From: Acidithrix ferrooxidans | GTDB taxonomy: Bacteria > Actinomycetota > Acidimicrobiia > Acidimicrobiales > Acidimicrobiaceae | Reading direction: 5' to 3' | Length of the DNA stretch: 37,795 nt | Assembly: GCF_000949295.1 (NCBI RefSeq) | Contig: NZ_JXYS01000067.1 | Span: forward strand, 1-37,795 | Part shown: positions 7,134 to 28,468 of the stretch, piece by piece | Layout: each line of letters starts with the position of its first letter | Position numbering within the stretch: position 1 is the stretch's first letter | Notes under the pieces: model-generated | What the model was told of the DNA's origin: nothing | Seen by the model: only the letters and a program-made list of their open reading frames with translations | Databases searched by the model: none | Translations under genes and position numbers: made by a program

Positions 7134-8207
7134 TTGACTAAGGAGATGCAGTTGGATCGAGCTCCGGCAGGTTTGCGAACAATTGCCCAATTGGTTGATC
7201 GACGCTTGACAAAACTTTTTGACGACGAAAAGCCAAGGTGGGAGCGCGTTGACGACGGATTGATCGTTCCTTTTGAAGCACTTGAGAAGATGGTTGCCTC
7301 GGGCGGGAAGAGGCTTCGACCTGCTTTTTGTTACTACGGATACTTGGGCTCCGGAGGATATGGAGACGCTCCTATTCTAGTGGATCTTTTAACTTCTCTT
7401 GAGTTGCTACATACTTTTGCCCTATTGCACGACGATATTATGGACGGCTCTTCTACTAGACGTGGCTCATCGACTGTTCATGAGCGATTTATCGAAGAGC
7501 ATAGGATATCTTCTTACAGAGGTGAGAGTCGACGCTTCGGCGAGGGTATCGGGATCTTGATAGGTGATTTAGCATTTGTCTATGCAGATATGATGATGGA
7601 AGCCGCGCCACTTGCGACCCGCAAGATCTACTCTGAACTCCGACTTGAAGTAAATATTGGACAGTACCTTGACCTTATTGGAACTGCCAAAGGTAGGCCG
7701 ACTGTCGAATCGGCGCAGAAGGTAAGCATCTATAAATCCGGGAAATACACGATCGAGCGACCACTTCAGATAGGCGCCTCTTTGGCCGGGGCATCTTTAG
7801 ACCAGATGGAGGAACTGTCACGTTTTGGGCTTCCTCTCGGTGAAGCTTTCCAACTCAAAGACGACCTATTGGGTATCTTTGGCGATAGCACCATAACTGG
7901 TAAGCCTGTCGGTGATGACTTGAGGGAAGGTAAGCCAACCACCCTGGTCGCGATGACCATGGACCGCCTGACTGGTCTCGCAAAATCAGAGTTTGAAAGA
8001 CTGTTTGCCCTTGATCTACCGAATGAGAGCCAGATCCTCGCGATGATGGAGATGATTGAGGATTGCGGATCAAAGGCGATGGTTGAGGATCGAGTCGAGA
8101 TGCTTGTTGAATCGTCTTTGTTGGCTTTAGACGAGTGCTACCTTTTGGATTCGGCAAAGGCTGACCTAAGAGACCTCGCCGTCTTTATCGCCTCGCGAGC
8201 TCTCTAG
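7134..8207 (+). CDS. crtE: Geranylgeranyl diphosphate synthase (polyprenyl synthetase)
   Basis: Condenses isopentenyl diphosphate with allylic diphosphates to give the C20 precursor of carotenoids. The 357-residue protein carries GGKRLRP near residue 57, the first aspartate-rich motif DDIMD (100-104) with the TRRG that follows, and the second as DDLLG (243-247) after FQLK. All are hallmarks of trans-prenyl synthases. I start it at TTG 7134, seven bases after AGGAAAG; the in-frame ATG at 7146 has its AGGAG with no spacing and is less likely. It is followed 21 bp on by crtI, which fixes its role as the carotenoid GGPP synthase rather than a general quinone-chain enzyme. The product chain length is inferred from context. 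Confidence 0.9.
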   Translation: MTKEMQLDRAPAGLRTIAQLVDRRLTKLFDDEKPRWERVDDGLIVPFEALEKMVASGGKRLRPAFCYYGYLGSGGYGDAPILVDLLTSLELLHTFALLHDDIMDGSSTRRGSSTVHERFIEEHRISSYRGESRRFGEGIGILIGDLAFVYADMMMEAAPLATRKIYSELRLEVNIGQYLDLIGTAKGRPTVESAQKVSIYKSGKYTIERPLQIGASLAGASLDQMEELSRFGLPLGEAFQLKDDLLGIFGDSTITGKPVGDDLREGKPTTLVAMTMDRLTGLAKSEFERLFALDLPNESQILAMMEMIEDCGSKAMVEDRVEMLVESSLLALDECYLLDSAKADLRDLAVFIASRAL

Positions 8208-8228
8208 TCTAAGATTAAGGATAGCGAT

Positions 8229-9734
8229 ATGAGAATTGCCGTAATTGGCGCAGGATTAGGGGGCCTATCCGCTGCAAGTTATCTTAGGCGTGACGGCTAT
8301 GAGGTAACTGTTTTTGATAGTGCGGATCGAGTGGGGGGCCGCAGTGGCCTCTTTGCCTCTAATGGTTTCTCTATTGACACCGGACCTTCTGTTCTTACGA
8401 TGTTAAATCTTTTATCAGATGTCTTCAATGCCAATGGCGCTAACTTATCTGATGAACTTGAACTCATCAAGCTTGACCCAATGTATCGTGCAAATTTTGA
8501 GGACGAAGCGGGGCCATCCGGTGGCGGCGTGATATCGGTACGTGCTGGCCAGGAGGCGATGAGACAAGAGATTCGAAGTGTTGCTGGTTCTAAGGATGCA
8601 GCTGCATTCGATAGGTTTTGCGCCTATCTAAGAAAGCTATATGCTCTTGAGGTCGAGAACTTTATTGACCGTAATTTTGATTCACCTCTAGATTTCTTGA
8701 ACCCACTTATGCCAGGGCTGCGCCTTATTCAAATGGGGGCCTTTGGACGACTTGCTCCGCTCGTTGAACGGTATTTTGACGATCCTAGACTTCAGAAGCT
8801 CTTTTCTTTTCAGTCTCTTTATGCAGGTCTTTCTCCTTATGATGCCCTGGCCGTCTATGCGGTAATTACTTATATGGATACGATCGAGGGTGTGTACTTT
8901 CCTAAAGGAGGAATGAGTGCGATTCCTCAAGCCCTCGCGAAGGTTGCTAAGGCGAATGGAGTGGAGTTTCGTCTCAATTCAAAGGTTTCGCGCATTCTGA
9001 GATCAATGGGATCGCGTGGAAGTGTTGTTGGGATTGAACTTGAAGATGGCGAGCGCTTTAGCGCTGATGCGGTAGTGGCCAACGGTGAATTGCCGGGTGT
9101 CTACAGAGATTTATTGGGCGGGGAGCAGGCCCCACGCGTATCACGCAAGGGGGAGTATTCACCATCTGCTCTTTTACTTTTGATGGGTATCGATGGTAAA
9201 CCGAGCGTGGAGCACGCTCATCATAATATCTATTTTGGTAAAAAGTGGAAAGAGTCCTTTGATTCGCTTCTCAAGAGTGGAACGAGAATGGAGAGCCCAT
9301 CTATTCTGGTGACAATTCCTACTCACAGTGATCCAACTTTAGCACCGGACGGTTCCTCGATAGTCTACGCCTTAGAACCCGTCCCGAATCTTGATGGCAA
9401 GATTGATTGGCGATATGAGCGAGACATAGCAATTTCCGACTTTAAAGCGCGTTTAGCTCACAGAGGTATTCTTGGAGCAGGGACCTCGAATATTGTGCTT
9501 GAGAAGGCGATAGACCCTCTGGATTGGCAAGCTATGGGAATGGAGAGAGGAACCCCATTTTCTCTTTCGCATCGTTTCTTTCAAACTGGACCGTTTCGTC
9601 CGAATAATTACGACAAGAGAATCCCCGGCCTTTATTTTGTTGGATCGTCTACTGTGCCCGGGGTGGGTGTTCCTATGGTTTTGATCTCTGGAAAGTTAGT
9701 TGCTCAAAGAATCGGCAAGGCAACTAGATGGTGA
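8229..9734 (+). CDS. crtI: Phytoene desaturase
   Basis: FAD-dependent oxidoreductase that desaturates phytoene, normally to lycopene. The 501-residue protein starts with the dinucleotide-binding motif GAGLGGLSAASYL (about 7-19) and VGGRSG, and ends with the CrtI signature GLYFVGSSTVPGVGVPMVLI. Length is right for bacterial CrtI. ATG at 8229 is preceded by AAGGA. The lycopene cyclase genes in the same locus suggest that the product is lycopene. The 3' end overlaps crtB by seven bases. Related enzymes can use diapophytoene or make neurosporene; a crtE and a phytoene synthase next to it argue for the C40 route. Confidence 0.93.
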   Translation: MRIAVIGAGLGGLSAASYLRRDGYEVTVFDSADRVGGRSGLFASNGFSIDTGPSVLTMLNLLSDVFNANGANLSDELELIKLDPMYRANFEDEAGPSGGGVISVRAGQEAMRQEIRSVAGSKDAAAFDRFCAYLRKLYALEVENFIDRNFDSPLDFLNPLMPGLRLIQMGAFGRLAPLVERYFDDPRLQKLFSFQSLYAGLSPYDALAVYAVITYMDTIEGVYFPKGGMSAIPQALAKVAKANGVEFRLNSKVSRILRSMGSRGSVVGIELEDGERFSADAVVANGELPGVYRDLLGGEQAPRVSRKGEYSPSALLLLMGIDGKPSVEHAHHNIYFGKKWKESFDSLLKSGTRMESPSILVTIPTHSDPTLAPDGSSIVYALEPVPNLDGKIDWRYERDIAISDFKARLAHRGILGAGTSNIVLEKAIDPLDWQAMGMERGTPFSLSHRFFQTGPFRPNNYDKRIPGLYFVGSSTVPGVGVPMVLISGKLVAQRIGKATRW

Positions 9735-10585
9735 CCCAACGGGAACTAGATGGCTCCTATGAGCGATGCAGATCTCTAAATATGCGCTTTGGTAAGTCTT
9801 ATTACTATTCCACTTTTCTACTTCCTCAGGCGATGAGGCGACATATACATGCGCTTTATGGCTTTTGTCGATATGCAGACGATATCGTTGACGATCTCGG
9901 AGATGTCCCAATTTCTGACCGGGAGAGTGCCCTGGGGGCCTTCGTAGGGCGCTTTTTCACCGATGTAAAGGTTGGTTTTTCAAATGATCCAATATTGATG
10001 GCTGTCGTAGACACGGTTCTTCGTTTTGAAATCGATCTTGATCTTTTTAGTAAATTTGCCGAATCGATGAGGCTGGACTTTTCCAAATTCAGATACGAGA
10101 CTTATGAAGACCTTTTGACCTACATGGAAGGCTCTGCTGCCGTTATAGGTGAGATGACATTACCAGTTTTGGAGCCATCGTCTAAATACGCCCGAAAGCC
10201 GGCTAGGGATCTAGGCTTTGCTTTTCAGCTGACAAACTTTTTGAGAGATGTCTCAGAGGACTTACAGCGTGGAAGAATCTATATTCCGCTTGAAGATATT
10301 GAGCAGTTTAAGGCCATGAGCGCTTTTGAGACCAGACGATCTGATTTTGAATTTAGAGAATTGATGCAATTTGAGATCGCCCGAAATAGGGAAATCTATG
10401 AGCAGTCCCGTCTGGGGGATCGTTTTTTGCCGCCTCGTTCTGCGGCCTGCGTAGCTGGCGCACGAGAACTTTATTCAGGAATCTTAGAAGAGATTGAATT
10501 AGTCAACTTCGATGTATTTGGGAGTCGTGTGAGTGTTGCCCCATGGAAGAAGTTCAGAGTAGCCATTGGCGCGATTGTTGGCTAG
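9728..10585 (+). CDS. crtB: Phytoene synthase
   Basis: Joins two geranylgeranyl diphosphates head to head to phytoene. The 285-residue squalene/phytoene synthase has both Mg-diphosphate motifs: YADDIVDDLGD with Asp51/52 and Asp55, and LTNFLRDVSEDLQRGRIYIP with Asp174 and Asp178. The end, DVFGSRVSVAPWKKFRVAI, matches the normal CrtB C-terminus, so the stop at 10585 is credible. ATG at 9728 lies inside the crtI stop region (7-nt overlap), indicating translational coupling. The last 87 bases also encode, on the other strand, the C-terminus of the crtZ-like gene, an unusual tail-to-tail overlap. Confidence 0.93.
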   Translation: MVTQRELDGSYERCRSLNMRFGKSYYYSTFLLPQAMRRHIHALYGFCRYADDIVDDLGDVPISDRESALGAFVGRFFTDVKVGFSNDPILMAVVDTVLRFEIDLDLFSKFAESMRLDFSKFRYETYEDLLTYMEGSAAVIGEMTLPVLEPSSKYARKPARDLGFAFQLTNFLRDVSEDLQRGRIYIPLEDIEQFKAMSAFETRRSDFEFRELMQFEIARNREIYEQSRLGDRFLPPRSAACVAGARELYSGILEEIELVNFDVFGSRVSVAPWKKFRVAIGAIVG

Positions 10586-11026
10586 TACCGCATCCGCCCT
10601 TGCTCGAACTGACTTTGGGACTATTGGGAATAGCATTCCGTAGGGTTCGCCATTGTAGAGGTGGTGGATCTGGTGGGCGTATCTTAGGGGTTCTAGGAAT
10701 GAAATGGTGGGCACATTGAAGAGCCTCTTATGGATGTAGATGTCATGCATGAATGCATAAGCCGCTCCATAGATGGTAATTCCAATGCCAACTGGAACAA
10801 GGATTGAAAATTTTGACGTTGTTGTTCCAAGCGCTATAGCTGCGATGGTAAAAGCGGCAAAGGCTACGGGATAAGCGTCGTTTGCCTCGATCTTTTTAAG
10901 GCGAGTTTGATGATGGCTGGCGTGAAGAATCCAACCAAAGCCATGCATTATTAGCCGATGGGCCAAATATGCGATCGGCTCCATCAGAAAGAATGTTGCG
11001 ATTACAATTGAAACTTTGAAGAGCAT
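10499..11026 (-). CDS. crtZ: Beta-carotene hydroxylase (fatty-acid-hydroxylase superfamily)
   Basis: Membrane di-iron hydroxylase that adds 3/3'-hydroxyls to beta-ionone rings, giving zeaxanthin. The 175-residue protein holds the complete histidine set: HRLIMH (23-28), HASHH (35-39), HDIYIH (94-99) and HQIHH (118-122), between hydrophobic helices. ATG at 11026 has AGAGGT a few bases upstream. It lies 112 bp downstream of crtYd on the same strand, so it is probably the last gene of crtYc-crtYd-crtZ. Its last 29 codons overlap crtB on the opposite strand. Other members of the superfamily desaturate or hydroxylate lipids, but the CrtZ-like His spacing and the locus make the carotenoid role likely. 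Confidence 0.88.
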   Translation of the reverse strand: MLFKVSIVIATFFLMEPIAYLAHRLIMHGFGWILHASHHQTRLKKIEANDAYPVAFAAFTIAAIALGTTTSKFSILVPVGIGITIYGAAYAFMHDIYIHKRLFNVPTISFLEPLRYAHQIHHLYNGEPYGMLFPIVPKSVRARADAVLANNRANGYSELLPWGNTHTTPKYIEVD

Positions 11027-11138
11027 GTGGACCTCTTTAGGTTATCTCTAATATATCAGTATAGAGAATCTAAAGATCTAGTTGGAGCAATGCCAGCTAG
11101 AGAGTGGTTCTAGAGCACTTATATCTCAAGGTCAGCAG

Positions 11139-11450
11139 CTATCTGTCTTCTCTTTGTCTTAGGCGTTCCCAAATGCTCAAGACCGCTGAGACAAGCGCAA
11201 AGCCGTAGAGGAAGTCCTCGATGGGGATGGAAAATGGTATTCGTAAGCCGGAGAAGTGGTTGGGATTATATATGACAATTGGGGCTGAGGTTTTTGTGAG
11301 CCAGCCATCGGTCGGGATTTGAAATAGTACGATAATTAAAATTGTGATCCAGAATTCTTTTTTGAAGTAGATCCGGCCTTTCATAACAAAGAGTTCAAAG
11401 ATTATCGAAAGAGCCACGGCGGCCAGTGCGCCAATGGTGTATGCATGCAT
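11139..11450 (-). CDS. crtYd: Lycopene cyclase subunit, C-terminal half type
   Basis: 103-residue, three-helix membrane protein of the small lycopene cyclase domain family. It carries the conserved IPIEDFLYGF (P-x-E-D/E-x-x-x-G/F) motif at about 75-84, the catalytic loop of this family. Two such domains from separate genes form the heterodimeric beta-cyclase CrtYc/CrtYd of actinobacteria (CrtYe/Yf in the C50 pathway). It starts with ATG at 11450, four bases after the crtYc stop. With a crtZ and no lycopene elongase (UbiA-type) gene beside it, beta-carotene is a more likely product than a C50 carotenoid. Confidence 0.9.
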   Translation of the reverse strand: MHAYTIGALAAVALSIIFELFVMKGRIYFKKEFWITILIIVLFQIPTDGWLTKTSAPIVIYNPNHFSGLRIPFSIPIEDFLYGFALVSAVLSIWERLRQREDR

Positions 11451-11454
11451 GGAT

Positions 11455-11799
11455 CTAGCGCCTCGTTGGTCTTTTTTGTCTTGGCTCTAGCAGCACGTGG
11501 ACGGCCTCATATGTCAAAAGTGCGCAAATTGGTATGATCAAGAAAAATAGGAGCTCCTCCAGGGGAAGTTTGCCTGGAAGGGTGACGCCGCTTACGTAGC
11601 GCTTGGCATAATACCACCAATTGGCATGGATGGAGTAGATGTCGAAAAGCGAGAAAAGTAGCGCGATAGGTATTAATGAGATTGCCAGTCTGAGCGGCTT
11701 GCGGTAGACCTTAGCCCCAATGACGAGTTCCAGTGGCAACGTACCTATGAGGCAGAGCGCTAACACGATTAAGTATTGTAGGTGGTTGATCGACTTCAT
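11455..11799 (-). CDS. crtYc: Lycopene cyclase subunit, N-terminal half type
   Basis: Partner of crtYd. The conserved part begins MKSINHLQYLIVLALCL and contains the motif LPLEELLFF in the last third, equivalent to the PxE(E/D) motif of its partner. The frame is open further, to a TTG at 11886, which would add 29 hydrophilic residues. I prefer ATG at 11799 because the family starts with a HLQYL-like segment immediately after the Met and is about 105-115 residues long. Neither start has a strong ribosome site. It is the first gene of the minus-strand carotenoid operon, read towards crtE-I-B. Confidence 0.87.
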   Translation of the reverse strand: MKSINHLQYLIVLALCLIGTLPLELVIGAKVYRKPLRLAISLIPIALLFSLFDIYSIHANWWYYAKRYVSGVTLPGKLPLEELLFFLIIPICALLTYEAVHVLLEPRQKRPTRR

Positions 11800-11886
11800 C
11801 TCGAGTCTGTTTTCTGATTCGAAGGCACGCGGGTTTGTCAAATTCCTTATAAAAGCTAACCCAATCTTACTAATGGTAGTGCTCAA

Positions 11887-14650: not shown

Positions 14651-17173
14651 TTACGCCTTCTTATCGTGCTCTGGGCTAGTTTGCCATGGGTACCACTGTC
14701 TGGCGGTCGAGCGGATCATCCATCGGCTATCTTCGTTTTCGCGGGCAACTAGGTGGACCCATGCTCCATTGAAGAGTTGCTGAAGGATTTGGTTGGCATC
14801 GATGACTTGTTCGATTCGTTCAATGGGCGCCTCTACCAAGGTGAGAAGACGCATCGGTTCGTGGTAGGCCATGTCTTGATCAAAGAGTGATTGACGTGTT
14901 AGGCCAACCAACAAGTCGCCGCCCGCACCAAGTATAACTCCCGTGTCTCCAACGACGTTGTGGGCTACCTTGTCTCCTGCGGAGAAGGTGGCTGCATCGA
15001 CACTAGAGAAGTAGTATTGCGCATTTATCCAGTGCGCAACCACCATTGGGGCCGTGAGAATCGCTGTGAGTAAAGTACCGTCGGGGTCGATGCTTGCATT
15101 GTAGGAGTGAAGAAAGGTACGGCGATTTAGATCCAGACCCGCAGTCGTCGATCGAGGTCCTATAATCATTGCGGCATTACGAGCTAAGCCCCACTCCGGA
15201 GTAATCTGTGCCCAATCGCTAGCCCGACGTGCTACGTGGGCCGTACCTCCTCCGGCCGGTGCCCCAGGTAAGGATCTAACACGTTCTTGAGCTAGTTTTT
15301 CTCCTGCTTGGATGAGCGCCTGTTTCAGCGACTCTATCTCGCTCTTGTGCGTTAGTGTCGCATTTTGGGTGTCGAGTAGAGTTACCAAATCGATCGATGT
15401 GTCGTGCTCGCCTGCGATGAATATGGTTGAATCTGGGATTGCAATGCCGCGTCCAGTCAATCCTGTACGCACGTCGCTGGTGTTTAGGATAGTAGCAAAG
15501 ATACGAGCGCTGTTGGCTCCGCGGTTACCACCGCACGCACCACAGTGAAAAGCTGAGAAGAATGCGTTGTTTTCGGTGCTACTTCCATGGCCACATACCA
15601 GCACTATCGGAGCGAAGTTGCCTATTAGACCTATTGCTCTAAGGGTATTTTCGGCCATATTGACTTGTTCGTCGATCGTAAAACTTTCGTTTCTATCGCC
15701 TATTTCTATGTGAGTTGAGATCGGTCCCGAACGTTGTCCTCTAGCAAACGAGCGAATAGATGCATACCCTCTTGGGCTAATAGTACGTGCAATTGCGATT
15801 GCACCGGCTGCAACTCCTGTTGCTTCCGCAAGTACGTAGGCCGAGGTGGCTCCATGGCGAGTCCTCTCAAAAGCGGAATAACTCGCCCTTTCGACCTCTG
15901 ATATTGCCATTCTTCTTTTTAGAGAACTGTCATTATCTTGATTGGGAACTTCGTAGCTTGAGATAGTCGGCTGCAACAGAACAGGGCTTAATGGGATCGG
16001 TGTGGATTCTCCAAATGCGGCGAAGTTGGCTGGGATGCCAAAGAAACCTGCAAAGCCATATGTTTCGATTTCTCCGGCTATATCAGTTGCTTCAAGCTGG
16101 CGACGGATTCCTTCTGATCTGACGTCAATACAGAAGATAGCCTGTACGCTCGCCGTCGTGGGTTCATTGGAGAATTCTGAGGAGCTTTCGCAGCTCGATT
16201 TCGATTCGATGATCGTCAAAAGCTCATCGCGGTAGTGGTTCTCATAAGCACGTAAGATGACAGCGCTCTGGCGGTCCGGTGAAAGTTGGGATAGGGCTTC
16301 CCAGCCGGATCTGTTTGAATTATCCTTCGTCGTCGCTCTTTTCCTCTTTGGTTCATGGGTCAGAGGAGGGCAAGATGCGTTGGTTTTTACCGAGGTGATC
16401 TCTGTGGTTTTCAAGGCATTAGCCACAACCGCTTCGTAGACAAGTCCTACGGCAAGCAGGCTATCCAAGTAGAGTTTCGGCCCCGGATGTGATGGATCGG
16501 CCCATTGTGAGCGCCACTTTGCATGTCCTGCCCAACCCAATAGCCGAGTTAGGGTGAGCCGAAATAACTGTATGTGTAGCTCTTGAGGAGCCTTGAGATC
16601 TTCTAGCGCTTTTGTAATTGCTATTAGTGGAGTCTCTCCGAAGGCTCCTAAGGATTTGTGTTCCTTTTTCCCTACGATTTTTCGCGCTGCCGGATCGATA
16701 ACGACGTGTCGCCTCCAATAGTCGTAGAAGCCATTTTCGGCATTTTTATCGGAGGCAGTTAAAAAAGAAGCACACCACTTTGCCATCTCTTCTTCTATCA
16801 TTGTGGAAAGTTGAGTGCCGTGGATGTGATCGATGAGTTGACTCGGAAGGACCATTTCGAGGGGTTCAATCTCTTTCTGGTATTGTTCGGCCAAGATATT
16901 CGCCTCTATAGTTGCTTCGTCGATATCCTTCGAGATGAGACGAGACTGCTTTATTGCTAAGTCAGCCAGACTCTCGGGGAGGTACCCGTCAATACCGAGG
17001 TATTGACGGGCGTAGCGAATGGCGCCATGAAACCCCAGGTCGCGAAGGTCCCATAGGGGATTTACGGCGACGAAATTCGTCAATGGCCATATGGGTGCGA
17101 GTACTTCTGCGGCTTGTTCTATCTCTTTGATAAGCGAGAGGGGCTTGGAATTTTGAACACGCTCTTTTTTCAT
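14651..17173 (-). CDS. dabA: DabA, inorganic-carbon transporter subunit (DUF2309)
   Basis: 840-residue protein of the DUF2309 family. In Halothiobacillus neapolitanus DabA joins DabB to form an energy-coupled, carbonic-anhydrase-like pump that accumulates bicarbonate. The zinc ligands are retained with the right spacing: CID (Cys348, Asp350) and CGHGSSTENNAFFSAFHCGA, giving His529 and Cys544; in the reference protein they are C351, D353, H524 and C539. The N-terminal FVAVNPLWDL segment is also typical. It starts at ATG 17173, overlapping the dabB stop by four bases (ATGA). Cytoplasmic and peripheral to the membrane by analogy. The pair indicates active CO2/bicarbonate uptake, in an autotroph or to feed carboxylases of a heterotroph; no Rubisco gene is in the window. 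Confidence 0.93.
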   Translation of the reverse strand: MKKERVQNSKPLSLIKEIEQAAEVLAPIWPLTNFVAVNPLWDLRDLGFHGAIRYARQYLGIDGYLPESLADLAIKQSRLISKDIDEATIEANILAEQYQKEIEPLEMVLPSQLIDHIHGTQLSTMIEEEMAKWCASFLTASDKNAENGFYDYWRRHVVIDPAARKIVGKKEHKSLGAFGETPLIAITKALEDLKAPQELHIQLFRLTLTRLLGWAGHAKWRSQWADPSHPGPKLYLDSLLAVGLVYEAVVANALKTTEITSVKTNASCPPLTHEPKRKRATTKDNSNRSGWEALSQLSPDRQSAVILRAYENHYRDELLTIIESKSSCESSSEFSNEPTTASVQAIFCIDVRSEGIRRQLEATDIAGEIETYGFAGFFGIPANFAAFGESTPIPLSPVLLQPTISSYEVPNQDNDSSLKRRMAISEVERASYSAFERTRHGATSAYVLAEATGVAAGAIAIARTISPRGYASIRSFARGQRSGPISTHIEIGDRNESFTIDEQVNMAENTLRAIGLIGNFAPIVLVCGHGSSTENNAFFSAFHCGACGGNRGANSARIFATILNTSDVRTGLTGRGIAIPDSTIFIAGEHDTSIDLVTLLDTQNATLTHKSEIESLKQALIQAGEKLAQERVRSLPGAPAGGGTAHVARRASDWAQITPEWGLARNAAMIIGPRSTTAGLDLNRRTFLHSYNASIDPDGTLLTAILTAPMVVAHWINAQYYFSSVDAATFSAGDKVAHNVVGDTGVILGAGGDLLVGLTRQSLFDQDMAYHEPMRLLTLVEAPIERIEQVIDANQILQQLFNGAWVHLVARENEDSRWMIRSTARQWYPWQTSPEHDKKA

Positions 17174-18786
17174 GCTGCTGCTTCTTCTTTTTCGATGGAA
17201 CTTTCGGATTGCATCAAGATTCGTTGGTATTGTCGTCGGCTTGTCTTTGGCGGCGAAACTTTGGCCCAGGTATTTGGGATGTGGTAAAAGCCATGGCGGC
17301 TAATACTGCCGAAGTTTATTGACCACACTCGAAGGTGACGTTCGAGTGTGGGTATTGTGCTAAGGCGTTCCAATCCCAAGGCCACTCCGAGGGCGACTAT
17401 GAGCCACCATGGTGAAAGCGCTCCAGAGGGAACAACCGCCAAAGAGGATGACATCCAACGATCAAGACCACCGAGGATCGCTCCATAGGCCGCTGAACCA
17501 AGGAGAGTCGCCCCTGCAATGGTCACAATGAGTTTTGGTTGGCCAGCTAGGTTCCGGGCAGCGTTTGATATAGCAACGTAGATGGTGCAAGCAACGAATC
17601 CGAGCAAAATGAGACCTCCTCGATGACCCGATGCTCCGGGATAAGCAGCCGAAACTGCGACCAAGGCACCCAGAGCTGCGATGGCTTTTGTCTTTATGGG
17701 CGGGTGATTTGCTTTGGCTGGCGCGTTGTGGCCGCTAGGCTTTCCAATCGCTGAAGGTGAATTTAGAAATCGAGAAGCTTTGTATGTGCCATGTCCCAGG
17801 AGATGCATGAGTGTGGCTAGGTTTGCACCGATAGTCGCTTCACTAATCATAAATCCCATCTGGGAGATGGTAGAGATGGTGAGTTCGCCTTTTATGTCGC
17901 TGCGAAAGCGGATCGCTAGAGCTGCAACTATTGCGGTTATGGTGACGATGGCAAAGGCGAGAGCGGTTACCAAGTTCGATGACTCTGCGAGTACACCTAT
18001 TCGTAGTAGTAAGATGCCACCTCCATTTACCACTCCAGCGTGAAGTAGAGCGCTGACAGGCGTGGGTGCGTTGACTGTTGGTGGCATCCAACGAGCCGCT
18101 GGACCTTGAGCGCTTCGAATGAGGATGGCCACCATCAAAAGCGCGCCAACTGGCAGAGCCTCGCCTCCGAGCGCAGTTAGGGCCTCGTGTTGTGCGCCAA
18201 GGCTTGTGATGTTGAGATTTCCTACACGGTTGAGCACAAGAAGCACAGCACCCACCATAGCGATCGCCCCTATGGAAAAGTAAGTCAAAGTGCGTCGAAG
18301 GGCTTCAGCTACTCCAGGAAGTTCTCGACGGTAAAAGAGCAGGGCAAGAAAGGATGCATCCGCTATGATCCATGCACAAGATAGTACCGCGAGAGTGGTT
18401 GCCGTTGCAACGGCTATCGAGGAGGCAATTAGCACCTGGGACGCGACAAAGTACCGTCTATTGAGCAGGTCTTGCTGGAGAAAGCGCAATGAAAATGTTG
18501 ATACGATAGCGCCGATCGTAGCGATGAAGATCATCAGGACGGCACTAAGACGATTTGATGCGAAGTAAGGGTGCTTTGTTATAGGAATCAGAGAGATGTG
18601 AGAGAATATATTAGCGCCAGTGGATACCTTGACCATAACCAATAGGGCACACGCTACAACTAACCAGGCGGCCCATACGCTCAATCGCGCTACCCAACGA
18701 CGAGGTACGAGACACAGCACGCCTGCGGCGAAAAGTGGTAACACGACAGTGGCTGTTGAGCCATTTAGAGCTATTCCAGTATCCAA
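17170..18786 (-). CDS. dabB: DabB, proton-coupled membrane subunit (ND5/MrpA-like)
   Basis: 538-residue hydrophobic protein of the proton-conducting antiporter family (Proton_antipo_M), shorter than respiratory NuoL. It contains the ALLHAGVVNGGGILLLR segment on the central helix and a GHGTYKASRFL segment, both typical of the NuoL-like DabB group. It should use the proton or cation gradient to drive CO2 hydration by DabA. The start is TTG at 18786; GGAGG stands eight bases before it, which makes the TTG convincing. It is first in the two-gene dabB-dabA operon. The upstream 100 bp are very AT-rich (around TATATATAATC), a plausible promoter site. Confidence 0.92.
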   Translation of the reverse strand: MDTGIALNGSTATVVLPLFAAGVLCLVPRRWVARLSVWAAWLVVACALLVMVKVSTGANIFSHISLIPITKHPYFASNRLSAVLMIFIATIGAIVSTFSLRFLQQDLLNRRYFVASQVLIASSIAVATATTLAVLSCAWIIADASFLALLFYRRELPGVAEALRRTLTYFSIGAIAMVGAVLLVLNRVGNLNITSLGAQHEALTALGGEALPVGALLMVAILIRSAQGPAARWMPPTVNAPTPVSALLHAGVVNGGGILLLRIGVLAESSNLVTALAFAIVTITAIVAALAIRFRSDIKGELTISTISQMGFMISEATIGANLATLMHLLGHGTYKASRFLNSPSAIGKPSGHNAPAKANHPPIKTKAIAALGALVAVSAAYPGASGHRGGLILLGFVACTIYVAISNAARNLAGQPKLIVTIAGATLLGSAAYGAILGGLDRWMSSSLAVVPSGALSPWWLIVALGVALGLERLSTIPTLERHLRVWSINFGSISRHGFYHIPNTWAKVSPPKTSRRQYQRILMQSESSIEKEEAAA

Positions 18787-22520: not shown

Positions 22521-23243
22521 TCAGGTTTTGATGGCGTAGAGAACTAATGACTTTCCAATTGATGGATCAAGAACCCTTTTCTCGAAGGTATCTAAGCGCT
22601 CGAGTCGGCCAGACATTTGCTTGATCAATAGATCTTGGTATCTTCGAATCGGCGATAAATTGGTTTTTTCTAACCCCAGCAGTGTCTTTAGCCACCAGTA
22701 AGGTGAGTGAAGACCATGTGCATATGAGACCACAACTACATCCAAGTTAGCTTGTGCGATTCGTTGGAGAAGTTGGCGTTTTCGGTAGATCCTTATGTGT
22801 CCACCCTTGACGCTATGGTACTCCTTGGAGAAGATCCAGTTTAATAATTCCGGCATCGCTCGAGGTACTGAGATCGCGATCATTCCGCCGGCCTTTGTGA
22901 CCCGATTTATCTCTCTTAGGACGACATGGTCTTCTTGAATGTGCTCGAGGATCTCCGAGACGATCACTATATCAAATGAGTTGTCATGGAAGGGGAGACC
23001 CCTGGCGTCACTCACAGCCAGTGAGAGCATCTTGGGTGATGTGTCGTCTTTGATGTCTAGATAAGCCAACGTCTCGTCCAGGGTCGCTGGAATTGTTTGA
23101 AGTGGAGTTGGGTCGATTTCAACACTTACTACGCTGGCTCCGCGAATTATGGCTTCGATACTGTGTCGACCCGCTCCAGCACCTAGGTCGAGGACCGATT
23201 TTTTACGCAGATCGCCAAAACGATCAAAGTCGAATGTCTTCAT
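22521..23243 (-). CDS. Class I SAM-dependent methyltransferase, partner of GT4
   Basis: 240-residue Rossmann methyltransferase starting MKTFDFDRFGDL, with the SAM motif LDLGAGAGRHSIEA (19-32), an acidic end of strand 2 (EIDP) and FDIVIVSEILEHI as motif post-I/II. The start overlaps the end of the GT4 gene by four bases (ATGA), so the two are co-translated and probably act in one pathway. From memory, a methyltransferase beginning DFDRLG next to this type of GT4 is a conserved pair in many actinobacteria, usually with a prenyltransferase-fold protein and a second methyltransferase. Those last two lie at 32985-34641 in this window. The substrate is unknown. Confidence 0.88.
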   Translation of the reverse strand: MKTFDFDRFGDLRKKSVLDLGAGAGRHSIEAIIRGASVVSVEIDPTPLQTIPATLDETLAYLDIKDDTSPKMLSLAVSDARGLPFHDNSFDIVIVSEILEHIQEDHVVLREINRVTKAGGMIAISVPRAMPELLNWIFSKEYHSVKGGHIRIYRKRQLLQRIAQANLDVVVVSYAHGLHSPYWWLKTLLGLEKTNLSPIRRYQDLLIKQMSGRLERLDTFEKRVLDPSIGKSLVLYAIKT

Positions 23244-24583
23244 GAAATTTCGCCTGTCGCATCCTCAAGATGTAATGGTTCATTGAAGTTGACCTTTACA
23301 ACATTGGGCGATGGTATGGGATCTTTGCTTCTTGCAATAGCGAGATTATATTGTTCAACGGTGGCAATAGCTGCGCTCTTCCAGGAGTAGTTTGCTAGAA
23401 CCCGAAGACGACCATGGTGTGAAAGTGATGCCCCAAGTTCGCTTGAGTCAAAGATCATCGAGATTGAGTCTGCTAGTGATTCTGGATTCCTGGCCTTGGC
23501 AATTAGGCCTGCTACCCCATTTTCACCTACCACTTCTGGTAAGGCGCCGCCATCGGTGGTGACAAGGGGTGTTCCACAGGCCATGGCCTCAACGGCCGGG
23601 AGAGAAAATCCTTCATACACGCTTGGTACACACGCCACCTGGGAGCTGGAATAGCACCGCACCATCTCCTCGTGAGTCACCTTGCCGACAAATTCTACAT
23701 GACCGCCAATGCCAAGCTCTTTTACGAGTTGATGTACTTCGCTATTGGATTTGCGTGCTCCCAGTACCTTTAGAGTCACGTCAGGATAGTTAATACTTAG
23801 GATTTTTACAGCTTCCACAAGGTATTTGAGCCCTTTTAGTACGACGTCCGCACTAGCTGTGGTTACGATTTGGTGTGGTATCGGTGTTATTCCATCAATA
23901 GGTCTAAAGACTGTGGTGTCTACGCCTATCGGAATAACGGTAATCTTTTCGGGATCTAGTTTCATCCCTGTCACCATGTCATTTTTTGATGCCGTGGAAA
24001 CTGTAATTATTGATTCATATCGTCTTGCGACTTCGCATTGAAAGCGAACGAAACCGTACCAGCGCCTCGCTCCTAACTTGGCAAGCATTCCCTTGGCACC
24101 TTTTATATCAAGTGTGCGGTCCACCGTGATTGGATGGTGGATAGAAGTCACGCTAGGAACATTGTCAAAGGACAGTCCCAGTAACGACCAGTTTAGGGAC
24201 TGGTTATCGTGGATGACGTCAAATTCCCCAATGCGTCGACGAATCTGACGGGCTGCTCTGTAGCCAAAGACTCTTGGTTCGGGAAATGAGCCAGTTGACA
24301 TCAATGCAAACTCTATTAAGTCGAACATGGACTTGAACTCCGTGAGTTTGGGAACTCTAAAAGGATCTGGCTCACGATAAAGGTCGAGAGAGGGGAGCTT
24401 GACGAGCTCAACCCGTTCGTCTAGATGAGGATATGGAGGTCCTGAAAATACTGTAACTTTGTGGCCCAAGTCGCAGAGCGCCGCCGTTATATATTTTGTG
24501 TAGACACCTTGACCACCTGAGAAAGGATTTCCTCGATATACGCAGAATGCAATTCGTAGAGATCGCGATAGATCATCCGCCAA
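23240..24583 (-). CDS. GT4-family glycosyltransferase
   Basis: 447-residue GT-B glycosyltransferase. The N-terminal acceptor domain has the glycine-rich loop NPFSGGQGVYTKYI; the C-terminal domain has VFGKV-like EFVGKV and the nucleotide-sugar signature EGFSLPAVEAMACGTP (E-x7-E), typical of retaining GT4 enzymes. The donor is probably a nucleoside-diphospho sugar; the acceptor is unknown. Start at TTG 24583 overlaps the NRAMP-like gene by 11 bases; no ATG lies close to the conserved LRIAFCVYRG strand, so TTG is kept. Its stop overlaps the next methyltransferase. It thus sits in the middle of a four-gene minus-strand run, MgtE-like, NRAMP-like, GT4 and methyltransferase. Confidence 0.9.
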   Translation of the reverse strand: MADDLSRSLRIAFCVYRGNPFSGGQGVYTKYITAALCDLGHKVTVFSGPPYPHLDERVELVKLPSLDLYREPDPFRVPKLTEFKSMFDLIEFALMSTGSFPEPRVFGYRAARQIRRRIGEFDVIHDNQSLNWSLLGLSFDNVPSVTSIHHPITVDRTLDIKGAKGMLAKLGARRWYGFVRFQCEVARRYESIITVSTASKNDMVTGMKLDPEKITVIPIGVDTTVFRPIDGITPIPHQIVTTASADVVLKGLKYLVEAVKILSINYPDVTLKVLGARKSNSEVHQLVKELGIGGHVEFVGKVTHEEMVRCYSSSQVACVPSVYEGFSLPAVEAMACGTPLVTTDGGALPEVVGENGVAGLIAKARNPESLADSISMIFDSSELGASLSHHGRLRVLANYSWKSAAIATVEQYNLAIARSKDPIPSPNVVKVNFNEPLHLEDATGEIS

Positions 24584-25859
24584 TGTGAAACCAACCTAAA
24601 ACTGTCTGCCCCATAAGTACTAAAGACAGACTAGACACGCCAACAACCGTGGCAGTCGCAACACCTCTGAATATACGGCCATTAGCCGCGTCTCCGAGTA
24701 TGGACCGCTTGTTTGCTAACTTTAATATGAATACCAAGATAACTGGAGTCACTAAACCTTGGAGCACTTGGGAAAAGACTAGAAGTTTGATTAGACTGCC
24801 CGGGACTAGGGCTACAGCTGCTCCAATTGCAATTTGAACTGTGAAGATACCGAGAAAGACGGGGGCGTCCTTGAACGATCGAGAGACCGAACGTTCAAAT
24901 CCAGCTGCCTCTGCGATGGCGTAGGAGGTGGATAGGGGAACTACAGCAGCAGCAAGGGCCGAAGCACCAAAGAGGCCAGCTGCAAAGATGTAAATATCTG
25001 CGGCCCCTGCTACAGGACGAAGGGCCCGTGCCGCTTGAGAGGCAGAGGTGAGTGGTCCACTGCCCCCAATTGCAGCAGCTGTAGCAATGATCATAAACAT
25101 GGAGATGATATTCGCGAAGATTGCCCCGCCGACGGCATCAAAACGCTCCAATGGATAGTCGTCCGGGCTTACCCCTCGGTCGACCACTCCCGATGCAGCA
25201 TATAGCTGCATATAGGGCGAGATGGTGGTGCCAATGAGAGCTACTGCTAGGTAGATGTAATTCTTGGAAAGGACGAAATGTGGAATTACTAGATTGGTGG
25301 CTATTTGGCCAAATTTAGGGTGACTAAGGAAGGCCGCAATTGGGTATGCAAGAAATGCGAGCGACATAAACAGAAAGATTCTCTCAGCGTATCGATATGA
25401 ACCTAGAAGTACCAGCGACCAGACACCGACTGCTGCGATTGGAACTGAGATATATCGAGAGACCCCAAATAGCTCCAGAGATGCGCCAATCCCAGCAAAT
25501 TCTGAGACTACAAGGCCGAGATTGGTTACAACTAAGGCGACAATGGCCAGAAAGGTGAGACGGATTGAGAACTGTTCCCGAATGAGGCTTGCTAATCCCT
25601 TGCCCGAAAATGTGCCAAGGCGTGCCGACATCTCTTGGACCACAACAAGGCCGACTGTTACCAATAACATAAAGAAGAGGGTCTTGTAGGCAAATTGAGA
25701 GCCAGCCGATGCGTAGGTGATAACTCCGCCGGCGTCGTTTCCAGCGTTTGCAGCGATTAATCCGGGGCCAGCAGCTCCGAGGTAGGCGATAATTCCAAAC
25801 TTTTTCTTGGTGCTGAACCGAGGCTCCTCACCAGAATCATTCTTTCGTGGCTCTTGCAT
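24573..25859 (-). CDS. NRAMP (SLC11)-related divalent cation carrier, probably Mg-type
   Basis: 428-residue LeuT-fold carrier with about eleven helices, starting GPGLIAANAGNDAGG. In classical NRAMP the unwound helix 1 reads DPGN; counting from GPG, the same place here reads Asp42-Ala-Gly-Gly, so the Asp is kept and the Asn lost. In helix 6 the A/C-x-x-M-P-H motif is TTISPY, so the Met that selects transition metals is Ser214. Loss of that Met is a feature of NRAMP-related Mg transporters (NRMTs) as I remember the SLC11 literature. The gene follows the MgtE-N/CBS gene by 156 bp on the same strand, which supports a Mg-type role. Import of Mn or Fe is less likely. Exact substrate is an inference. 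Confidence 0.87.
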   Translation of the reverse strand: MQEPRKNDSGEEPRFSTKKKFGIIAYLGAAGPGLIAANAGNDAGGVITYASAGSQFAYKTLFFMLLVTVGLVVVQEMSARLGTFSGKGLASLIREQFSIRLTFLAIVALVVTNLGLVVSEFAGIGASLELFGVSRYISVPIAAVGVWSLVLLGSYRYAERIFLFMSLAFLAYPIAAFLSHPKFGQIATNLVIPHFVLSKNYIYLAVALIGTTISPYMQLYAASGVVDRGVSPDDYPLERFDAVGGAIFANIISMFMIIATAAAIGGSGPLTSASQAARALRPVAGAADIYIFAAGLFGASALAAAVVPLSTSYAIAEAAGFERSVSRSFKDAPVFLGIFTVQIAIGAAVALVPGSLIKLLVFSQVLQGLVTPVILVFILKLANKRSILGDAANGRIFRGVATATVVGVSSLSLVLMGQTVLGWFHIGG

Positions 25860-26015
25860 TTAATTAACTCATATTCAATTGTGTGAATACTCACGGCTAT
25901 CAAATAACAAATGCACAGAATGTCTCCTTGTGATATCGGTTAGTGCCGATCTTCTAGTAATCATGTGTTTAAGGGGTAATTTAGAGCATTGGAATGGTTT
26001 TATGGGTGCAAGCAA

Positions 26016-27362
26016 TTAAGAGAGTAACCGAGGGAAGCGTCCTTTGGATCGATCTGGCAAAATCGCATCAACCAGATCATCCGCTAGGATTCGACCCAAA
26101 GTTTTCCCCTCCTCGACTACGACCACAGAGGAGCGCCTAGTCTCAATTAGTGCTTCAGCAATCGCATCAAGGTCGTCGTTAGGGTCGACAGTCACGCATT
26201 TTGATTCGCGAACTAGCGTAGCAATCTGGTCGTTTCTATTTGAGACCATAAGCAGCTCGAAGATCGATACGTCGGCGCAGAAGTTTCCATCTTCGTCAAA
26301 TACTACAACGCCATCTAGGTCGCCACCGTGGTCTGAAAGGTCGCGCAATTGGTCGATTACCTCGCTTATGGTGGCCGCTTCGTGGACCTCAAGAACCAGA
26401 CTGGTCATGATTCCGCCAGCGGTCTTTTCGTCGTAGGAAATAAGCTCTTTCAAATCCGCGGCTACGTCAGGTTCGAGGAGGTCGAGCAGTTCATCTCGTT
26501 CATCTTCGTCAAGATCTCGAAGAACATCAACCGCTTCGTCTGGCTCCATATTTGCCACGAGGTCGGCGGCTATATCTGGTTCGGTATTTCGAATGAAGGA
26601 TTCGATCTGTTCAGCATCCATCTCCTCAAGGGCATCTGCGATCGCTTCAACACCAAGTGCCTCGATTAACCCACTGCGCTCTCTTCGTCCTAAATCTTCT
26701 AGCAGGTCTGCTAGTTCGGCCGGGCGCAGCCGCTTTATTCCTCCGTTGGCTCGGGCTGCACGTAACTTCATCTCGCCACTAGTTTCATCGAAAGCTGCGA
26801 CATCGGACCAATCGATTACTCGTATTGGGTTGGCCCTTGCTCGAATTCTCTGAGGCGCCATACGTCGAAAGAGAGCATTCACTCCAACTTCGACACCAAC
26901 CAGCCTAAGTTTCCCCAGTGCGTTTGCTAGATAGAGTTCGCTTGCGCGAATAACTTGGATTCCTTCTACGTCGACCAGCTGGTGGTCTAGGATCTCCTCC
27001 ATCAGAAGTACTTCGTTGTTGCGCTTTGAAAAATCCCGCAGATCTACTTTAGAGCTTCGAAGCGCTATGGATTTGGTTTCAAAGATCTCCACTTTGTCAA
27101 TATCAACGAAGGTACGTTGACGTCCCACCCTAACGATTAGACCCGTAATTGGTGGATAGTCAATTTCTGGAGACCATCGAGCGACGATGTCGACCAAAAC
27201 GCCAATATCACCACCACTTTGATTGCGAACGGTAATTCCAAGCAACCCAGATAGCGGCATTATTGCTGCGCGTATTTCCGAAATGGCAAGGATTCTTCGA
27301 GCTCTTGAAACTCTGATTCTTGAAATCCGAACCGGCGAAGGAATCTGTACCTTGTAGGCCAT
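26016..27362 (-). CDS. Soluble MgtE N-domain plus CBS-pair protein without membrane domain
   Basis: 448 residues with no transmembrane helices. An N-terminal region with PRC-barrel-like strands (about 35-95, repeated less clearly 118-185) is followed by a highly acidic MgtE_N superhelix (213-310, LLEDLGRRERSGLIEALG and repeats DIAADLVANMEPDEAVDVL), then a CBS pair starting at EKTAGGIMT (312-320). In true MgtE these two domains sense Mg and gate the C-terminal pore. Here the pore is absent, so this looks like a stand-alone Mg sensor, probably regulating the NRAMP-like carrier downstream. ATG at 27362 has AAGGGG seven bases upstream. A 22-codon leader ORF precedes it. In actinobacteria this gene next to an NRAMP homologue is, as I recall, a recurring pair. 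Confidence 0.88.
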   Translation of the reverse strand: MAYKVQIPSPVRISRIRVSRARRILAISEIRAAIMPLSGLLGITVRNQSGGDIGVLVDIVARWSPEIDYPPITGLIVRVGRQRTFVDIDKVEIFETKSIALRSSKVDLRDFSKRNNEVLLMEEILDHQLVDVEGIQVIRASELYLANALGKLRLVGVEVGVNALFRRMAPQRIRARANPIRVIDWSDVAAFDETSGEMKLRAARANGGIKRLRPAELADLLEDLGRRERSGLIEALGVEAIADALEEMDAEQIESFIRNTEPDIAADLVANMEPDEAVDVLRDLDEDERDELLDLLEPDVAADLKELISYDEKTAGGIMTSLVLEVHEAATISEVIDQLRDLSDHGGDLDGVVVFDEDGNFCADVSIFELLMVSNRNDQIATLVRESKCVTVDPNDDLDAIAEALIETRRSSVVVVEEGKTLGRILADDLVDAILPDRSKGRFPRLLS

Positions 27363-27453
27363 GATTTAACCCCTTATACTAGAAATATCTAATAGATAGG
27401 GACGTCATCACCGCTCCGATGTGGCTCGTAACCTTAGTGGGTTGTAACTAGCG

Positions 27454-27522
27454 CTACCAGACCGACAGTGACGTCATAAAGACGAATTTTTCTCCGGTAC
27501 TCGGGGGTTCACTAGAATTCAT
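27454..27522 (-). CDS. Putative 22-residue leader peptide upstream of the Mg-sensor gene
   Basis: A short frame, MNSSEPPSTGEKFVFMTSL followed by SVW and TAG, starts with ATG at 27522 behind a near-perfect ribosome site (GGAGG, seven bases spacing), one of the strongest in the window. The stop is 91 bp before the start of the MgtE-N/CBS gene. Its early acidic and proline residues (SSEPPST) recall MgtL of enterobacteria, whose acidic/proline N-terminus makes ribosomes fall apart when Mg is low and so signals to the Mg transporter mRNA. That this peptide does the same is an inference from position, ribosome site and composition. Confidence 0.55.
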   Translation of the reverse strand: MNSSEPPSTGEKFVFMTSLSVW

Positions 27523-27760
27523 GACATCACCTCCATATTTCAAACAGATCAACTACGCAGAGTCAGACCTCGGTGGAGGCCCGTGCTTACCCACCGTTAA
27601 CTTCTATGCCAAAGAAAACCTTGTGGCGTTATGCCAAACTAAACGATAGGGCGTAAATTACTACTCCTTAAAGCGTAGCTGTATAATCGCAGCTCTTGGT
27701 GTTGAAAAAGCGAATTGTCTCAACAATTTACTCTTAATTTACGCAATATTATCTTTACCA
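27523..27760 (-). promoter_or_regulatory. 5' leader and promoter region of the cation-transport operon
   Basis: The leader can form alternative stems. CGGTGG (27571-27576) can pair with CCACCG (27591-27596), while CCTC (27568-27571) can pair with GAGG (27576-27579), and these share bases. Downstream, inside and after the leader ORF, GACGTCAC can pair with a later GTGATGACGTC through a small bulge. I looked for the M-box (ykoK) Mg riboswitch and do not recognise its conserved core. An inverted repeat, TGTTGA (27700-27705) and TCAACA (27720-27725), lies further upstream. The exact promoter is not resolved. Confidence 0.35.
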
Positions 27761-28468
27761 CTATGGTTTTTTAGCGCGAATTATTCCAGCTTCGGAAACA
27801 ATCCTGATCGCCTCGATCTCAACGAATCCAGCGTTTGAAAGGAGGGTTACCCAAGAAGCTTGGCTTATAGGTTTTTCTTGAAAACGAAAGAGGTACCTGA
27901 ATCCGTTCTTTGCAATTCTCCAGTATCCGCCGGGGCCTTTGGACATCATTGTTTTGACTTTGTCCATTATTACCGCGCGGTCTTCTGCGGTAGCACCACG
28001 TCCGAACATCATGTCGCCGAAGATAAGCTCTCCGCCAGAGTGGAGCCATCGGAATGCATCGTGGACAAAACTCTGTTTCTCTTTGTCACTTAAGTGGTGC
28101 AGCACGTAATTTGAACAGACTAGACCAACGGTACCGTTAGTAACTCCATATTGCTGAACAGAGCCAACCACTGCTTGTACGTTTTTGATCTTTTGACTTT
28201 CGAGTTTTTCATTCAAGAGGTCGATCATCTTCGGTGCGATATCGAGTGCAAGAACTGATTTTGTCTTTGTTGCTAGGGGTATGGAAAGCTGACCCGAACC
28301 GCATCCAAGATCGATCGCAAACTCTAAAGGTCGATCTCCAATGAGTTCAATCATCTCGTCAACTACCCGTTGTAGTCCAGGATTTTGCATTTCGTCCCAG
28401 CTGGTGGCGCGTCGTGACCAGACGACCCGCTGAAGATAAAGACCTGCCTTTTGCATAATTGAAGACAA
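27761..28468 (-). CDS. Class I SAM-dependent methyltransferase
   Basis: 235 residues with FAIDLGCGSGQLSIPLA as the SAM-binding motif (about 50-66), LALDIAP at the end of strand 2, and VGLVCSNYVLHHLSDKEK as the strand-4 motif; this is the Methyltransf_11/25 type. No catalytic feature identifies the substrate (small molecule, lipid or quinone are all possible). Start is TTG 28468 or, four codons later, ATG 28456; AAGAG before the TTG fits it slightly better. It lies upstream of the cation-transport operon on the same strand but separated by about 400 bp with its own leader, so it is probably a separate unit. Confidence 0.85.
   Translation of the reverse strand: MSSIMQKAGLYLQRVVWSRRATSWDEMQNPGLQRVVDEMIELIGDRPLEFAIDLGCGSGQLSIPLATKTKSVLALDIAPKMIDLLNEKLESQKIKNVQAVVGSVQQYGVTNGTVGLVCSNYVLHHLSDKEKQSFVHDAFRWLHSGGELIFGDMMFGRGATAEDRAVIMDKVKTMMSKGPGGYWRIAKNGFRYLFRFQEKPISQASWVTLLSNAGFVEIEAIRIVSEAGIIRAKKP

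Follow-up and report, generated by a model that had tools for sequence, protein, structure and literature searches.

The contig NZ_JXYS01000067.1 of Acidithrix ferrooxidans (assembly GCF_000949295.1) was analysed over its positions 1 to 37,795 (the window, 37,795 nucleotides in full), and the subject of this work is a pair of genes on its minus strand. The upstream open frame (26016-27362) encodes a soluble protein built around the cytosolic half of the MgtE channel, here called the sensor, and the downstream one (24573-25859) encodes a predicted carrier of the NRAMP-related Mg transporter (NRMT) type. An initial annotation, made from the letters of the sequence, had placed both genes at these positions, in the same direction and with the sensor upstream, and this arrangement was found again. 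The features of the locus are as follows.

24573..25859, minus strand: predicted NRMT carrier, 428 residues, recognised by Pfam Nramp, its match to structure 7qia and its place in the clade of EleNRMT.
25725..25736, minus strand: helix 1 metal-site motif D42-A-G-G45, DxxN in 8e6n, located by alignment to 7qia and 8e6n.
25218..25229, minus strand: helix 6 metal-site motif T211-T-I-S214, TxxA in EleNRMT and AxxM in 8e6n, located by alignment.
25860..26015, minus strand: spacer between sensor and carrier, 156 nucleotides, from the frame coordinates.
26016..27362, minus strand: soluble sensor, 448 residues, with a tandem PRC barrel, MgtE_N and a CBS pair, and no membrane segment.
26754..27266, minus strand: tandem PRC-barrel part, residues 33-203, a proposed docking module, from the structural model, the fold match and invariant residues.
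26424..26729, minus strand: MgtE_N, residues 212-313, with D243, D275 and D279 equivalent to TtMgtE E59, D91 and D95, from Pfam, mapping and conservation.
26058..26423, minus strand: CBS-pair part, residues 314-435, with D429 equivalent to TtMgtE D247; D226 of the Mg5 site and the ATP residues Y170, R187 and F227 are replaced.

The carrier scores 271 bits against the Pfam Nramp model and, among solved structures, 324 bits against EleNRMT of Eggerthella lenta (7qia), as opposed to 66 bits for the best classical NRAMP chain, 8e6n, which is listed as MntH and which we take to be DraNramp. Against the NCBIfam MntH model it reaches 124.8 bits, the cut-off being 430. Mapping on both structures equates its residues D42, G45, E120, T211, S214 and Q364 with Asp55, Gly58, Glu133, Thr224, Ala227 and Gln379 of EleNRMT, and the classical site, DxxN plus A/CxxM, is absent, with G45 and S214 standing at the Asn and Met places. 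The initial annotation had read DAGG for DPGN in helix 1 and TTISPY for the helix 6 motif, with loss of the NRAMP Met, and the alignment to 7qia and 8e6n agrees on all three points. The signature described for NRMTs is DxxG in helix 1 and TxxA/T in helix 6 (PMC8806188). D42xxG45 fits the former, and T211xxS214 keeps the Thr of the latter, with Ser instead of Ala or Thr at the last position, a replacement common to the close relatives of the carrier. The residue that follows the helix 6 Pro is Tyr and not His, which would be consistent with Mg2+ transport without proton coupling. The carrier is thus like EleNRMT in its D, G, E, T and Q site residues, with 43% identity over 405 aligned positions and membership of the same supported clade, and differs from it by S214 in place of A227 and by Tyr in place of Trp after the helix 6 proline.

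For the phylogeny, 150 of 183 hits passed the length and duplicate filters and were aligned together with the window protein; after removal of seven duplicate loci and addition of two reference proteins, a FastTree tree of 146 tips was obtained. This tree places the carrier among the 53 members of a clade that includes EleNRMT (support 1.0) and excludes the carriers with DPGN and MPH motifs. The proposal of a Mg-type carrier, which the initial annotation was ready to give up if the protein grouped with Mn/Fe NRAMPs, has therefore withstood that comparison, and the alignment and tree support an NRMT-type carrier that groups with EleNRMT rather than with Mn/Fe-motif proteins. The same genome harbors a second NRAMP-family carrier (genome G000, contig C18, about 60992-62191; loci L002 and L094) with the motifs GDNDAGAF and VGTTVAPWQ; it belongs to clade E of the tree, and no sensor gene is found within the stretch examined around it.

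EleNRMT carries Mg2+ and Mn2+ but not Ca2+, without H+ coupling, and its T224A mutant has no detectable Mg2+ transport (PMC8806188). It could be argued that the carrier is physiologically a Mn2+ importer and that the sensor answers Mn2+ rather than Mg2+, since the NrmT of Acidobacterium capsulatum, encoded downstream of such an MgtE fragment, fully rescued a Mn-uptake mutant and gave Mg rescue only at low-millimolar Mg, and since the authors consider a response of this fragment to Mn possible (Shin et al. 2014, PMC4072509). Moreover, no Mg riboswitch was found in the window. We regard this alternative as unlikely: the carrier clusters with EleNRMT, for which Mg2+ transport is proven, its T211 occupies the position of T224, the residue whose replacement by Ala leaves EleNRMT without detectable Mg2+ transport (PMC8806188), and, as EleNRMT carries both metals, rescue by Mn does not exclude Mg as a substrate. 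The content of the genome also speaks against it. The window's genome (97.98% complete) contains nothing that matches CorA or, at E up to 0.001, the MgtE membrane domain PF01769, and its hits to the MgtA model stay far below the cut-off (53 bits against a threshold of 611), although one CNNM homologue is present.

The sensor harbors Pfam MgtE_N at residues 212-313 and CBS domains. The MgtE membrane domain PF01769 gives no match in it at E up to 10, and a simple hydropathy scan detects no hydrophobic segment, as anticipated by the initial annotation, which had described a poreless protein with MgtE_N and a CBS pair. The protein is therefore not an MgtE channel, as it lacks the pore domain. The model of the whole sensor (mean predicted local distance difference test score, pLDDT, 84; predicted template modelling score, pTM, 0.57) matches the fold of the MgtE cytosolic domain over about residues 207-441, with Z about 21. 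The N-terminal part, earlier called PRC-like, is borne out as such, but as a tandem (double) barrel like that of CdpB1/CdpB2, to which the model of residues 1-205 (pLDDT 81) is matched (8qzo_F, Z 13.7, root-mean-square deviation 2.3, 132 residues aligned). The Pfam PRC model has no match in the window sensor and is present in most of the relatives scanned, and D126, Q128, D131, R139, R166, R167 and W185 are invariant in this part among 41 sequences. The listings of the fold searches cover mainly residues 310-441 for the whole model and 34-116 for the N-terminal one, so that the non-listing of a structure does not mean its absence. The likeness to CdpB1/CdpB2 (8qzo) is one of fold, over residues 33-203; identity is 14%, the matched chain of 152 residues leaves no room for an MgtE or CBS part, and nothing suggests a common function.

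In TtMgtE, E59 belongs to the Mg7 site, D91 and D247 to Mg4 and D95 to Mg6 (PMC5882242). These residues correspond to D243, D275, D429 and D279 of the sensor, and the positions of E59, D91, D247 and D95 are acidic in 73, 73, 75 and 73 of 75 distinct sensors, respectively. All four are within the top six of the 60 acidic columns, both in these 75 sequences, which remain after a 95% identity filter, and in the first set of 86 rows, which held some near-duplicates. The chance that four such columns all fall within the top seven is 7e-5 if ancestry is ignored, and the acids may be kept simply by descent from MgtE. The protein is thus an MgtE cytosolic module, with the MgtE_N and CBS fold and Mg2+-site acids, of which Mg5 is only half kept. 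Compared with the cytosolic domain of MgtE (TtMgtE 2yvy/2zy9, and 2oux), it shares the fold and the acids of Mg4, Mg6 and Mg7; unlike the MgtE channel, it is poreless, carries the N-terminal tandem PRC barrel, and has lost half of Mg5 and the ATP-site residues.

The neighbourhood of the two genes was surveyed in 198 actinobacterial genomes and then, with loci from named contigs added, by clade of the carrier tree. The carrier table comprises 117 rows, once three second halves of split hits are removed, and the sensor table 105, without its ten weakest rows (below 50 bits, MgtE_N part only). A full sensor was defined as a match of 1080 nucleotides or more, which holds for 67 of the 105 rows; two of the 38 shorter ones lie near a carrier and none near a DUF1003 gene. 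Across the 198 genomes, 30 of the 39 carriers of at least 250 bits have an adjoining sensor, always upstream and on the same strand, and the genomes of the other nine have a sensor-type match elsewhere; among weaker carrier rows a sensor adjoins 7 of 78. In the tree, a sensor-family neighbour accompanies 85 of the 89 carriers of the NRMT clades A to C for which the surrounding DNA was available, the window included: 37 of 38 in clade A, that of the window, whose exception is cut by a contig end, all 14 in clade B, that of EleNRMT, and 34 of 37 in clade C. Of these 34, nine are accompanied by a downstream stand-alone PRC protein only and three by neighbours of both kinds; one of the misses lies at a contig end. 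The intermediate clades D and E give 12 of 20 (4/6 and 8/14), and the remaining classical and outer groups 1 of 35 (clade F 0/13; the rest 1/22, a weak PRC hit). Fisher's test of 85/89 against 1/35 yields p 7e-25, a value that is only indicative because the tips are related. The pairing, which the initial annotation would have abandoned had the two genes been rare neighbours, is therefore conserved.

In 12 of the 37 clade C tips (L016, L020, L022, L031, L033, L064-L069 and L015), the stand-alone PRC-type gene immediately follows the carrier gene; nine of these loci have no adjoining MgtE_N-type gene. This position suggests that it is the PRC part that faces the carrier. In one locus (L141:2543-9206) two carrier-sensor pairs follow each other, a full pair and then a short PRC plus MgtE_N protein with a second NRAMP-family carrier, which has a DDDPAG motif and is cut by the end of the stretch. 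The same short sensor occurs in L152 and L173, near the ends of their stretches.

Beside NRMT-type carriers, the sensor family takes several forms. The shortest is PRC alone, in stop-to-stop frames of 192-232 residues and one of 300; then come PRC with a weak MgtE_N and without CBS, of about 300 residues, the full soluble form (tandem PRC, MgtE_N and CBS), the full form with one predicted C-terminal membrane helix, in the relatives nearest EleNRMT and thus unlike the window sensor, and the full form with four or five predicted membrane segments, of 610-681 residues. Three of the five-helix tails, compared with Pfam MgtE, gave E 1e-5, just below the cut-off, E 0.65 and no hit. The series may represent an MgtE-derived subunit that lost its pore stepwise, a direction of change that we infer from these forms.

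Pairs of this kind have been described before. Shin et al. (2014, PMC4072509) named the carriers NrmT, found a gene for MgtE-N adjoining most members and proposed feedback regulation; the carrier with its adjoining MgtE fragment appears in the Results on phylogeny and in the Discussion of that work. The novelty claimed for the pair by the initial annotation was consequently rejected, and the Acidithrix pair, in which an NRMT-type carrier adjoins a gene for the MgtE cytosolic domain, is a further case of the published one. It differs in that no M-box was found here, and the sections of PMC4072509 just cited describe neither the tandem PRC barrel nor the membrane-helix forms nor a DUF1003 partner. 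The new points are accordingly the build of the sensor, its kept Mg-site acids and its alternative partner DUF1003. Open-access searches found no literature on PRC barrel, MgtE and magnesium together, and none linking DUF1003 to magnesium; the titles among the matches listed for MgtE_N concern flagella or unrelated matters, and the two open-access papers found to mention DUF1003 deal, judging by their titles, with streptococci.

The model proposed here, which we consider somewhat more probable than its alternatives taken together, is that the NRMT carrier mediates the uptake of Mg2+, and probably of Mn2+, uncoupled from protons, and that its neighbour is a cytosolic, MgtE-derived Mg2+ sensor that restrains transport. 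The carrier would act as a Mg2+/Mn2+ uniporter, and the tandem PRC barrel would hold the sensor to the membrane or to the carrier. At high cytosolic Mg2+, D243, D275, D279 and D429 would be bridged by Mg2+, so that the N and CBS domains come together in the manner of MgtE, whose cytosolic domain is known from the literature to be driven to closure by Mg2+, and transport would be restrained. In its favour are the NRMT motif and mapped site, the clade shared with EleNRMT, the conserved neighbourhood, the MgtE-like fold of the C-terminal half of the sensor, the kept acids, the stand-alone PRC genes of clade C, and a genome in which neither CorA nor the MgtE membrane domain, nor MgtA over the cut-off, was found. 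The binding of sensor to carrier, the sign of the effect and the docking by the PRC part are those steps that we infer.

Several observations weigh against this model. The same type of sensor adjoins DUF1003 with no carrier next to it. In the published experiments, co-expression of the A. capsulatum fragment brought no gain in Mg rescue, the NrmT of this organism rescued Mn uptake, as mentioned above, and Clostridium carriers worked without an MgtE fragment (PMC4072509). No M-box was detected, as Rfam gives no match at the gathering score in the window and none relevant at 25700-28000 at E up to 5; yet an M-box lies upstream of only some NrmT plus MgtE-fragment members (PMC4072509), so its absence here does not exclude membership of this group. 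Half of the Mg5 site is lost, TtMgtE D226 being R409 in the window sensor, with an acidic residue at its position in just 10 of 75 sensors. So is the ATP site: TtMgtE Y170, presumably one of its residues, R187 and F227 are G351, F368 and R410 in the window and variable across sensors. R187 and F227 are established as ATP-site residues of TtMgtE (PMC5529423). The retention of Mg-site acids but not of ATP residues suits a module closed by Mg2+ without modulation by ATP. Regarding genome content, the model gains from an enrichment of carrier-sensor pairs in genomes without CorA and MgtE (8/14 versus 29/184, p 0.0009, uncorrected for relatedness). MgtE is rarer in genomes with NRMT (15/39 versus 98/159, p 0.011, likewise uncorrected). 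However, four of the 14 genomes that lack both CorA and MgtE have no sensor pair of any kind, and the idea that NRMT replaces CorA was rejected, as CorA is present in 29 of the 39 genomes with a carrier of at least 250 bits versus 122 of the 159 without (p 0.83).

It has also been proposed that the fragment could be a metal chaperone, a role named as an alternative by Shin et al. (2014, PMC4072509). The sensor would then not be a subunit but would bind cytosolic Mg2+ and act elsewhere, as a chaperone or buffer or as a regulator of several membrane proteins, the genes being neighbours through one pathway. This possibility gains from the 26 of 67 full sensors that lie by DUF1003 and not by a carrier, from the six more that are apart from the carrier, and from clade E, in which the order and strand of sensor and carrier vary. 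It is nevertheless rather improbable, in our opinion, given that the sensor is upstream and on the same strand in all 76 clade A to C tips with an MgtE_N-type neighbour, and that the predicted C-terminal membrane helix of the sensors nearest EleNRMT suits a partner in the membrane.

The 67 full sensors of the 198 genomes divide into 35 within 2.5 kb of an NRAMP-family carrier, 26 by DUF1003 (PF06210), none by both and six by neither, the genomes of these six carrying an NRMT elsewhere. DUF1003 is thus directly downstream of the sensor and on the same strand in 26 of the 32 full sensors without an adjoining carrier; these 26 span seven families, and one of the DUF1003 neighbours is a fragment below the cut-off at a contig end. 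The counts are based on 65 listed DUF1003 rows, and a subset of 37 rows gave identical ones. No DUF1003 occurs around the carriers and their sensors in the stretches L001-L179. A cluster of small open reading frames beside the orphan sensors had also been considered as the neighbour, but it consists of shadow frames, without Pfam or NCBIfam match in those scanned, and the real neighbour is DUF1003. In the loci with DUF1003 and sensor (L189-L208, e.g. L189:3440-5234), an Mrp/ParA-type NTPase gene comes next in 10 of 20 stretches. In seven of the 20 (L189, L190, L191, L192, L200, L201 and L202), CorA is encoded on the strand of the sensor at a distance of 1.5-8 kb. This count is not a rate, as the stretches are of unequal length and some were selected so as to include a previously listed CorA.

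A wider and doubtful hypothesis would see in the MgtE cytosolic half with tandem PRC a portable Mg2+-sensing subunit, attached by lineage to NRMT or to DUF1003, never to both in the 67 loci, in which case DUF1003 might be a so far unrecognised transporter or channel for Mg2+, or might regulate such a protein. This extension is weakened by the presence of CorA in 22 of the 26 genomes with DUF1003-paired sensors, by the lack of enrichment of such pairs in genomes without CorA and MgtE (2/14 versus 24/184, p 1.0), and by the 39 of 65 listed DUF1003 hits that have no listed sensor within 2.5 kb.

At the locus itself, a simple scan of the spacer 25860..26015 found no terminator- or promoter-like site, a result that says little, as the scan gave fewer sites than shuffled sequences. 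A glycosyltransferase frame (23240-24583, TTG start) shares 11 nucleotides with the end of the carrier gene, and co-transcription is therefore possible. Elsewhere in the window, judged from the frames alone, there are a carotenoid-type gene cluster (7134-11886) and a DUF2309-like and NADH-dehydrogenase-like pair (14651-18786), reminiscent of DabA/DabB inorganic-carbon uptake.

In 2014, what the MgtE fragment does next to NrmT was not settled (PMC4072509). With the neighbour counts, the PRC part and the conservation of the Mg-site acids, its role becomes directly testable, within a carrier family of solved structure. The choice of the sensor between an NRAMP-family carrier and DUF1003 as its neighbour provides a functional lead for DUF1003. 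If the sensor is indeed a separable Mg2+ gate, the regulatory half of a channel would have moved to a carrier of another fold.

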